Shown in pieces: positions 4,365 to 21,356 of a DNA stretch of 23,903 nt. The position numbers were made by a program, and so were the translations under genes. The notes beneath the pieces were generated by a model. It was not told the origin of the DNA. It did no database searches and saw nothing but the letters and a program-made list of their open reading frames with translations. The DNA is from a virus: the IMG/VR virus record IMGVR_UViG_3300035660_000081, positions 1-23,903 of that record, one strand, 5' to 3'. Every line of letters starts with the position of its first letter. Position 1 is the stretch's first letter.

Positions 4365-5366
4365 ATGGAGCAATTTAAAGGGAATAATATTCCGGGTCTA
4401 TATACCAGAATTTTAGAGAAAATATTGAATGATGGGAAAGAAGTGGGTCCAAGAGGATTAAAGACTAAAGAACTATCACCGGTATGCATAGAGGTTACTG
4501 ATCCTAGACGTAGACTATTTGGACACCCTTACCGTAAGGATGTTAGCATATTTACCTATATTGAAGGTCTGTGGATGCTGAAGGGTGAGGCTAGACCGGA
4601 TAGATTAGTTAGGTATGTACCGGCTATGGCTAACTTTACTAATGAAGCTACTAAGGGATTAGATGGGGCATATGGACCGGCTATAAACCTTACTAAGTAT
4701 GGCTATAAGATAAACCAGTGGGAGAATGCATATAATAGATTGACTATGGATCCAGATACTAGACAAGCTATAATAATGATTAACCAACCAACTATTCACC
4801 AATTACCGAGTAAGGACTACCCATGTACACTAAGCTTTCAGTTCTTACTTAGGAATAAACTATTAGATATGATAGTTACTATGAGAAGCCAAGATGCATG
4901 GTTAGGTCTAATCTATGATACCGGAGAGTTTCAATGGTTCCAAGAGATAATGGCCGGTTGGCTAGGTGTAGGGCTAGGAAGGTATATTCATATTGATGGT
5001 AGCTTACATCTCTATGAGAGGGACTGGGTTAAAGCTAGAGAGGTAGTAGATAATGATGCTAACTTTAGTGTTTATGACAAAGCTGCTGTACTAGATGCTA
5101 GGGTATCTAAGGACCAGTTTGATAGTACACTAGAAACTCTAGCTCTATGGGAAACTAGTTGCAGGGCTGGTAAGTTTGAGGCTGTAGTCTCTAGAAGACC
5201 TAGCGGGTTACTATGGAAAGATAATAAGTTCTATATGAACCTAGTAACTATGATAATGGCTTATAACTTTAGATTGGAAGGGTACAAACTAGAGGCTTAT
5301 GAGCTAGTACAATACAATAGGTCTGACTTAGGGATTATCTATGAACAGAGGTGGAGACCGCAATGA
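4365..5366 (+). CDS. Thymidylate-synthase homologue, probable dCMP hydroxymethylase
   Basis: The ThyA fold is clear: E67 in YIEGLWMLKG, GAYGP (101-105), DPDTRQ (129-134), catalytic cysteine C154 in DYPCTLSFQF, R174-S175 and D177, and the H215/Y217 pair in SLHLYERD. Aligned to E. coli ThyA from its C146, the spacing to R166, D169, N177, H207 and Y209 is kept without gaps. The position of Asn177, which selects uracil, is Asp185 here (GLIYDTGE). In T4 gene 42 the same Asn-to-Asp change marks a dCMP hydroxymethylase. The likely product is therefore 5-hydroxymethyl-dCMP from dCMP and methylene-tetrahydrofolate. At 333 aa it is longer than ThyA (about 264). dTMP synthesis remains the alternative, less likely because of D185. 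Confidence 0.85.
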   Translation: MEQFKGNNIPGLYTRILEKILNDGKEVGPRGLKTKELSPVCIEVTDPRRRLFGHPYRKDVSIFTYIEGLWMLKGEARPDRLVRYVPAMANFTNEATKGLDGAYGPAINLTKYGYKINQWENAYNRLTMDPDTRQAIIMINQPTIHQLPSKDYPCTLSFQFLLRNKLLDMIVTMRSQDAWLGLIYDTGEFQWFQEIMAGWLGVGLGRYIHIDGSLHLYERDWVKAREVVDNDANFSVYDKAAVLDARVSKDQFDSTLETLALWETSCRAGKFEAVVSRRPSGLLWKDNKFYMNLVTMIMAYNFRLEGYKLEAYELVQYNRSDLGIIYEQRWRPQ

Positions 5367-6214: not shown

Positions 6215-6507
6215 ATTACTCGGTTAGACTACCTAATGAAGATGGAGAAGCTTGTATAAAAGGTACTTTAGTAATTCTTGTTCGTAGAGAAATAATACTT
6301 AGGGAACATAAGACATTTGGGGTTAAGCGGTGGAGAGCTAAGACGGAAGATTTAATGGTTGAGATATTAACACATGAGGTTTTACATTTAGTAATATTGG
6401 ATCTTGAGGGTGAGATAGCTTCTACAGCTTTAGATAATATATGTGGTTGGGATTCTTACCATCCAATAATAGAATTTGGTAAGCTGTCTAAATGTCAAAC
6501 AAGTTAA
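6211..6507 (+). CDS. Small HExxH putative metalloprotease (98 aa)
   Basis: I place the start at GTG 6211, whose GTGA overlaps the upstream TGA stop, rather than at an ATG 72 bases further up that lies deep inside the DUF2061 gene. The product has an HEVLH zinc-peptidase motif (H55, E56, H59), followed by DLEGEIAS, where an acidic residue could supply the third ligand. The preceding EDLMVEILT helix matches the helix that carries HExxH in zincins. At 98 aa it is short for a complete protease. Substrate unknown. Confidence 0.6.
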   Translation: MNYSVRLPNEDGEACIKGTLVILVRREIILREHKTFGVKRWRAKTEDLMVEILTHEVLHLVILDLEGEIASTALDNICGWDSYHPIIEFGKLSKCQTS

Positions 6508-6596
6508 TAGAAAGACTTATAAACTCTGGTGTGCATAGTATAGTAATGCTTACTCCAAGGCCAAGGGGTAAGTTGTACTCTCTCTATAGCGGTTAG
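6492..6596 (+). CDS. Possible 34-aa protein
   Basis: ATG lies inside the end of the HExxH gene (16-bp overlap) and the frame reads 34 codons to TAG, ending SLYSG. It is basic with no recognisable motif. Its 3' part overlaps the first stem of the structured region at 6580, so it may be a chance frame or a leader peptide. Weak support. Confidence 0.3.
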   Translation: MSNKLIERLINSGVHSIVMLTPRPRGKLYSLYSG

Positions 6597-6731
6597 GTGG
6601 ACGCTTGATAGAGAGGGATTAATGCCACCGTAAGTATATCATCTCGAGAAACTGACCGCTACTCAACGGATCAAGGCTCGAGCGGTAGTAGAAGAATCCC
6701 GACGGGGATTAAATCAATGAGCCTACTACCG
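6580..6731 (+). ncRNA. Structured RNA candidate (about 150 nt) in an untranslated gap
   Basis: From 6597 to 6756 no convincing reading frame exists, in a window where genes otherwise touch. The interval is rich in perfect inverted repeats. CTCTCTAT 6580-6587 pairs with ATAGAGAG 6608-6615. Inside it AGCG 6588-6591 pairs with CGCT 6602-6605. GGTGG 6596-6600 in that loop can pair with CCACC 6625-6629, a pseudoknot. CTCGAG occurs at 6643 and 6677 and can self-pair. CGGTAGTAG 6683-6691 pairs with CTACTACCG 6723-6731, enclosing AATCCC 6695-6700 / GGGATT 6705-6710 with a GACG loop. ACCGCT 6655-6660 could pair with either AGCGGT copy (6588 or 6681), so alternative folds are possible. It ends 25 bases before the next gene and may be its leader. 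I do not recognise a named RNA family. Confidence 0.6.
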
Positions 6732-6756
6732 TATTTAATATTTATCTGGTGTTAAG

Positions 6757-7416
6757 ATGGAAAGTAAATTCTATATCATAAGTGAAATAATTAAGAATAG
6801 GCTGAAGGAACTGCTGCCACAATTTAGTCCTAGTGGTATAGACAATAAGCTTTTTGTTACAAGTGTAGAAGATTTTATTAACTATCTTAAGTTCTTATGG
6901 GATGGGAAACTTAGAGATTCTCAAGCACCGGCTAATATAGATAGTACAGATGAACCCTTAACTGGAAGAGACTTACATGAAGTATTTATGGAGTGGCTAG
7001 AGAGCTGCCCAGAAGCTACTAAGGAAGAAATAGACGCTTGGGTTAGTCTATGGTTATGTAAGTGGAAGGCTAGAGTACAGATACTATTTGGTGAAGAGAA
7101 TATACACAATAGAAACTTTAACCAGATGCAAGATGTAATAAAGAAGCATGATCCTATGGGATTCCAAGAAGAAAAGATGTATAGAGAACCGGTGATATTT
7201 ACTCTTATTAGTAATAGTGAGATAGTAGGTACAGAGATACTAGCTAAGGTTATTATTAATAAAGCTTATAGTAAGCTGAAGTCAAGACCTAGAGAGGTAA
7301 GAGAAAAGCTACAGTTTCTTAATGAGTGTATGAGAGAAGCTAAAGATATGAGTACAGTCAGTGGTAAGAGGATATTTATATCAGTTAAAAATTTTAAATG
7401 GTCTGTTAGTACATGA
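6757..7416 (+). CDS. Hypothetical protein (219 aa)
   Basis: The ATG lies 25 bases downstream of the structured RNA, with GGTG about 10 bases upstream. The 219-aa product is soluble and mostly helical, with a Trp-rich acidic middle (EWLESCPEATKEEIDAWVSL) and a basic C-terminus. No motif or family is recognised. It overlaps the next small membrane gene by ATGA. Being the first gene after the RNA, it is the one whose expression the RNA would most directly affect. Confidence 0.7.
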   Translation: MESKFYIISEIIKNRLKELLPQFSPSGIDNKLFVTSVEDFINYLKFLWDGKLRDSQAPANIDSTDEPLTGRDLHEVFMEWLESCPEATKEEIDAWVSLWLCKWKARVQILFGEENIHNRNFNQMQDVIKKHDPMGFQEEKMYREPVIFTLISNSEIVGTEILAKVIINKAYSKLKSRPREVREKLQFLNECMREAKDMSTVSGKRIFISVKNFKWSVST

Positions 7417-12519: not shown

Positions 12520-12659
12520 TGGTAAGATGTGAACAATGCGGAGTAGAATATACTAAGGGTGGTAGAATTTACAATAATCTATGTTCATTCTGTTTTCTAT
12601 TTGGTGATGATTGCAGTAAGTGTCCACTTAAAAATGTTTGTAAGAAGGAAAAAGTATAA
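12519..12659 (+). CDS. Cys-rich miniprotein (46 aa)
   Basis: TAATG start overlap with the previous gene and the same overlap with the next. There are seven cysteines in 46 residues: CEQC at 4-7, CSFC at 22-25, then C32, C35 and C41. This is enough for one zinc ribbon plus a second, incomplete site. No family recognised. Confidence 0.6.
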   Translation: MVRCEQCGVEYTKGGRIYNNLCSFCFLFGDDCSKCPLKNVCKKEKV

Positions 12660-13300
12660 TGCCACTTTATGTTGATGACCGAGAACCGGAAGAAATAGTC
12701 AAGTATCTTAGACGGTATAACTTAGCTGTAGAGGTTAAGCATATAGGGTCCGGCGATTATGTCTTTGGGGACGTAGCTATAGAGAGAAAGACTATTAGTG
12801 ATCTTGTTGGATCTGTAACCTCTGGTAGTAGGCACTTCTGGGACCAACTAGATACAATGAAGAGAACCTATACTAACCCTATATTATTCATAGAAGGAGA
12901 AATAGATCATAGAGATAGATTAGCTATGGGTATATTGACTACTGTTATCCTCTTCTGGAAGTATCAGACTATATTTACTAAAAACCTTAAAGATACTGCT
13001 GATTGGCTTGCAGCTCTATTCACTAAGTACGGTATGGGTAAGACTGGTAGAATACCGCCGGCAGCAGTTATTAGGCTAGACACTCCTAAAGAGATTAGAT
13101 GGGCTATGCTTCAATGTATTAAGGGAATAGGCGGTGTAGCAGCTAAGAGAATCTTAGAAGAGATACCGTATATGTTCATGATAAGGCAAGATGATGATCC
13201 CATATTGGACCCTAAGACTAGTTGGAGTAAGAAACTTAGTAAAGTAAAGGGATTAAATAAACAAGCTAAAGAGATGCTGGTTAGGGTGATAACTGAATGA
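12659..13300 (+). CDS. ERCC4-type nuclease (XPF/Mus81/Hef-like)
   Basis: Structure-specific endonuclease for branched DNA. The nuclease motif is complete: VDDREP (D6-P10), GSGDYVF (D33), then VAIERKTISD (E42, R43, K44, D48). A C-terminal helix-hairpin-helix region follows, LQCIKGIGGVAAKRILEE (about 151-168), with a second near KVKGLNKQAKEML. At 213 aa it equals the nuclease-HhH2 half of archaeal XPF, without a helicase domain. Gapless context with RadA suggests a role in resolving replication or recombination intermediates. Confidence 0.88.
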   Translation: MPLYVDDREPEEIVKYLRRYNLAVEVKHIGSGDYVFGDVAIERKTISDLVGSVTSGSRHFWDQLDTMKRTYTNPILFIEGEIDHRDRLAMGILTTVILFWKYQTIFTKNLKDTADWLAALFTKYGMGKTGRIPPAAVIRLDTPKEIRWAMLQCIKGIGGVAAKRILEEIPYMFMIRQDDDPILDPKTSWSKKLSKVKGLNKQAKEMLVRVITE

Positions 13301-21237: not shown

Positions 21238-21356
21238 GTTGTGGATGGATAGGTTTATTAATAACCTTAATATCCTTTGGTGTACATTACTTATATATGA
21301 GATGAAATCTTTGCTCGATCTGGGCAGAGTATATTAAAGTATAGGAGATTAAAATT
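21238..21356 (+). promoter_or_regulatory. Capsid gene leader and promoter
   Basis: This 119-base gap precedes what should be the most strongly expressed gene. TTATATATGA at 21291-21300 is TATA-like and would place transcription start near 21320. GGAG at 21344-21347 lies nine bases before the ATG at 21357. No strong hairpin is seen. Confidence 0.45.
21245..21337 (+). CDS. Possible 30-aa peptide in the capsid gene leader
   Basis: ATG 21245 opens 30 codons (MDRFINNLNILWCTLLIYEM at the N-terminus) to TAA. It lies in the gap before the capsid gene and overlaps a TATA-like element, so it may simply be chance. Not recognisable as any family. Confidence 0.2.
   Translation: MDRFINNLNILWCTLLIYEMKSLLDLGRVY

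Follow-up and report, generated by a model that had tools for sequence, protein, structure and literature searches.

The window, a 23.9-kb virus record analyzed over its whole length, encodes a topoisomerase VI A/Spo11 Toprim protein, RadA/Rad51, an ERCC4 nuclease, a family B DNA polymerase whose best phage matches are halovirus polymerases, and a major head protein. Collectively, this gene set points to the genome of an archaeal head-tailed virus. Within it, a gap of 249 nt (6508–6756) is bounded by an ORF ending at 6507 and by the gene o6757, which begins with ATG at 6757. The first-pass annotation had reported no reading frame here, and the ORF list likewise contains no ORF of at least 60 aa in the gap. 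Compared with related contigs from IMG/VR (L and G numbers), the gap and its RNA follow dcd and DUF2061 and take the place of the relatives' terminase. The o6757 protein (6757–7416) is conserved in the relatives L002, L005, L010, and G005, and has no match in Pfam or PHROG. Elsewhere in the window (21238–21356), a promoter-like GGATAGGTTTATTAATAACC precedes the major head protein gene, and G002 has a similar promoter-like box with the closely similar stretch TTGGTGTACATTA.

The gap had been read as a compact structured RNA at 6580–6731, and re-checking confirms the sequence, the coordinates, and the complementary segments: ACCGCT lies at 6655, AGCGGT at 6588 and 6681, GGTGG at 6596, and CCACC at 6625, and the 9-bp stem 6683–6691/6723–6731 pairs perfectly. 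This interval holds nine perfect helices of at least 6 bp against 2.3 expected from dinucleotide shuffles, and only 2 of 300 shuffles reach nine. The folding z-score is −2.65 for 6570–6740, −3.41 for 6540–6740 (none of 200 shuffles is as low), and −4.36 for 6643–6735. In a sliding scan, the lowest value of all window positions falls at 6631, and the gap as a whole (z of −4.1) is the lowest among the long gaps of the window. Thus, the interval is structured, as proposed, but the extent given to it was too short, since the element begins near 6546 with a further hairpin.

One homologue of this RNA was found among the relatives by blastn, at 2680–2773 of L001 (IMG/VR 3300032069_000017). It is 74% identical, and its location matches that of the window RNA, downstream of dcd and DUF2061. 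Three plus-strand hairpins are common to both. Hairpin H1 (6548–6573) consists of 9 bp and an 8-nt loop, AAGGCCAA in the window and AAGTCTAA in L001, which together read AAG(G/T)C(C/T)AA. Hairpin HA (6643–6682) is built from P1 (6643–6648/6677–6682) and the inner P2 (6653–6658/6667–6673), and hairpin HB (6683–6731) from P3, the 9-bp stem described above, and P4 (6695–6700/6705–6710), which is capped by a GACG loop. The loops AAAC and ACTCAA of HA and the AAG and GAGC internal loop of HB are invariant between the window and L001, an invariance that in two members is indistinguishable from recent common ancestry. The whole proposed RNA would span about 190 nt (6546–6735, plus strand), with both ends placed by prediction.

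The alignment with this related virus, a check suggested by the first-pass annotation, reveals compensatory changes. Across the two sequences, all 35 pairs compared are kept and none is broken; 12 of them are changed on both sides and 3 on one side. For H1, 9 of 9 pairs are kept and five are changed on both sides; for HA, the figures are 11 of 11 and three, and for HB, 15 of 15 and four. Taken together in the alignment of 6640–6740, HA and HB keep 26 of 26 pairs with seven double and two single changes, while sliding the partners by 1–3 columns leaves 27–41% of cells paired. The shuffle controls of covariation are modest (3/500 and 13/500) because only two sequences enter the comparison. Moreover, the paired cells contain six G-U and no A-C combinations on the plus strand, and the plus strand is therefore the functional one. 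The opposite outcome named by the first-pass annotation, stems lost while a protein frame is kept, was not observed, as no pair is broken and the frame is interrupted in the window. Collectively, these compensatory changes, drawn from two sequences, support a structured non-coding RNA.

The searches brought up two members in all. A covariance model matched only the window and L001 among the relatives' contigs. A loose pattern, GAAACTGN{4,10}ACTCAACG, hit at least 119 stretches in the viral contigs, and among the matches listed, L001 is the only true relative; stricter patterns run on viral and genome contigs returned nothing beyond L001. In L002, the closest relative by polymerase, an unrelated 171-aa ORF fills the corresponding interval, and the presence of the RNA is therefore patchy.

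The first-pass annotation had further proposed a pseudoknot and a switch with mutually exclusive pairings, and this part is not supported by the comparison. The spacer between H1 and HA is 11 nt in L001 versus about 69 nt in the window; therefore, the hairpin 6580–6615, GGTGG, CCACC, and the first AGCGGT all belong to an insert of about 58 nt specific to the window (6574–6635). Both segments of the GGTGG/CCACC pseudoknot and the AGCGGT copy at 6588 are consequently absent from the L001 element, which lacks ACCGCT, AGCGGT, and CCACC as such. For the alternative pairing of ACCGCT with AGCGGT at 6681, L001 reads GGCGTCC versus GGCGGT, which leaves a central G-G mismatch, and the stems competing with this pairing, P1 and P3, are those that carry the compensatory changes. 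A riboswitch with mutually exclusive pairing is thus not supported, since the alternative pairings are not kept in L001. The insert hairpin and the alternative pairings may still form in the window itself.

The first-pass annotation could match the RNA to no known family, and the database searches agree. Rfam 15 gave no match at the gathering threshold over the whole window, and at relaxed thresholds, the best sub-threshold matches of the window and L001 elements are at chance level. ARAGORN found no tRNA or tmRNA gene in the window, in line with the earlier reading, and blastn against phage and plasmid collections returned nothing relevant to the RNA. Weak Staphylococcus phage matches were rejected because they fall outside the fold, and likenesses to a k-turn and to the hairpin ribozyme, checked by eye, were not convincing. 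The window RNA thus appears to lie outside every described RNA family against which it was matched. The locus holds an element with a conserved fold, strand, and position that matches no known family.

Upstream of H1, a TATA-box-like TTATAAA (6517–6523, plus strand), preceded by GAAAG, lies 27 nt ahead of TAATGC (6544–6549). The same 27-nt spacing occurs in five loci, namely, the window, L001, where the box reads GAAAGGTTTATTAA, and the loci of a different RNA in L213 (G004), L012, and L016. This geometry would match that of an archaeal promoter and would fit a transcription start near 6546 (about 6545–6548), at the foot of H1. Because TAATGC also occurs at the start of a protein gene (12628–12660), the shared motif probably belongs to the promoter. 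Based on the TATA-like box, the conserved position, and the unrelated downstream genes, we favor a free-standing RNA gene rather than a leader.

A cis-acting 5' leader is the main rival, because no clear terminator follows HB and the next gene begins 25 nt downstream of it. Here, the promoter transcript would run into o6757, or into an 82-aa protein gene in L001, and the fold would control translation or mRNA stability. The distance from the end of HB to the start codon is 25 nt in the window (ATG 6757) and about 38 nt in L001 (ATG at 2806). Between HB and the downstream gene, neither sequence shows a clear terminator (by eye, TATTTAATATTTA and TATTTATATTC), so that transcription may continue into that gene, and no well-spaced separate promoter for o6757 was seen in the window by eye. 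However, the genes downstream of the RNA are unrelated to each other, the o6757-bearing relatives L002 and L005 lack the RNA, and the switch-type alternative pairing is not conserved. Like riboswitches and other leader elements, the window RNA is a compact fold shortly ahead of a start codon; unlike them, it has no Rfam match, and no consistent downstream gene accompanies it in the two loci available. A leader is thus possible rather than probable.

Related viruses carry other RNAs near their terminase genes. In L213 (G004) and L012, an RNA of about 140 nt, unlike that of the window and equipped with a TATA-like box, is flanked by the genes for the large terminase and the protease (L213:11771–11912 and L012:4618–4760) and is followed by a T-run. 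Its homologue in L016 (7866–8004), directly after the terminase, is 86% identical, with two double changes and one broken pair. A third kind of structured RNA is found between terminase and protease in L019/G010; in L019 (14009–14205), this RNA of about 165 nt has a closing stem AUGUGUCUC/GGGACACAU, a GGAAAGGTTTATTAA box, and a T-run. G006 possibly has a fourth kind of cassette after the terminase, while G005 shows a weakly folding stretch at the terminase-linked site. Where tested, these RNAs have no Rfam match, and neither blastn nor the covariance model detected homology between them and the window RNA. In G003 (L222, near 13518), the L012:4594–4767 block of about 174 bp, comprising promoter and RNA, is absent between flanks that are 95–97% identical; therefore, such RNAs can be dispensable. 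The window RNA would fit this pattern of accessory RNA genes in the virus group. Separately, G001 contains a gene-free stretch (4549–4969, L207) in which short perfect hairpins follow one another (fold z-score of −6.6); it may be an origin of replication or a transition region.

These positions raise the question of a DNA-packaging RNA with a role like that of phi29 pRNA. In G004/L012 and L019/G010, a structured RNA separates terminase from protease; in L016, and probably in G006, one directly follows the terminase. The window RNA comes after dcd-DUF2061, the site of the relatives' terminase. Similar to pRNA, it is a structured viral RNA of comparable size, and the relatives' RNAs adjoin the terminase gene; unlike pRNA, it shows no sequence match and no helix closing its 5' and 3' ends, and one relative lacks an RNA of this type. 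In that relative, G003, the terminase region is near-identical but has no RNA there or elsewhere in the part read, and this natural absence of the L012-type RNA speaks against a general need for packaging. Moreover, the terminase of the window clade differs and is placed elsewhere in the genome, and no homology of sequence or fold was detected among these RNAs. We therefore regard a packaging role as unlikely.

An RNA counter-defense factor would be a narrower form of the accessory RNA gene favored here, for instance, a mimic of the host CRISPR repeat or another decoy. RNA anti-CRISPRs (Racrs), which copy CRISPR repeats, occur in phages (PMC10651486) and provide a precedent; like the window RNA, they are small accessory viral non-coding RNAs. 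The window RNA is accessory, patchy, and apparently promoter-driven. Unlike Racrs, it is a three-hairpin scaffold without likeness to CRISPR repeats in Rfam, where no family, CRISPR repeat families included, matched at the gathering score. This specific form seems very unlikely. Finally, a protein-coding stretch is strongly disfavored and scarcely credible. In its favor, a frame of L001 (2527–3054) runs without stops through the RNA and on into the 82-aa gene, and both sequences have an ATG at the putative transcription start. However, stops interrupt that frame in the window, where the one plus-strand frame that stays open through the 3' part is closed several times in the 5' half. Moreover, any frame is shifted by the 1-nt indel found at alignment column 20, changes in the 3' part spread 7:4:6 over the three codon positions (hand count), and every stem change is compensated.

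We propose that, in this archaeal tailed virus, 6546–6735 on the plus strand encodes a small non-coding RNA, most likely a trans-acting accessory factor that can be dispensed with, and we give this reading an even chance. Transcription would start near 6546 from its own archaeal-type promoter, and the RNA would open with H1, followed by HA and HB. This fixed scaffold might display the invariant AAAC, CUCAAC, AAG, and GAGC elements for a protein of the host or the virus, a target at which we can only guess; antisense matches in the virus's own genome are at chance level. The effect could be, for example, interference with host defense or metabolism. Phage morons are autonomous accessory cassettes, and those known encode proteins. 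The window RNA resembles them in its own promoter-like box and patchy presence, as does a relative's RNA cassette in its clean presence or absence; it differs in that the cargo is RNA, and it might be called an "RNA moron".

The corresponding genome region of sister viruses appears to hold RNA cassettes of other kinds. This archaeal tailed-virus group might hold exchangeable RNA-only accessory genes in the dcd-DUF2061-terminase-protease region, with a common role, for instance in packaging or counter-defense, but lineage-specific families, an extension that we consider doubtful. Collectively, the covariation, defined position, and probable promoter offer a starting point for asking whether RNA genes may serve archaeal viruses as accessory weapons or as packaging parts.
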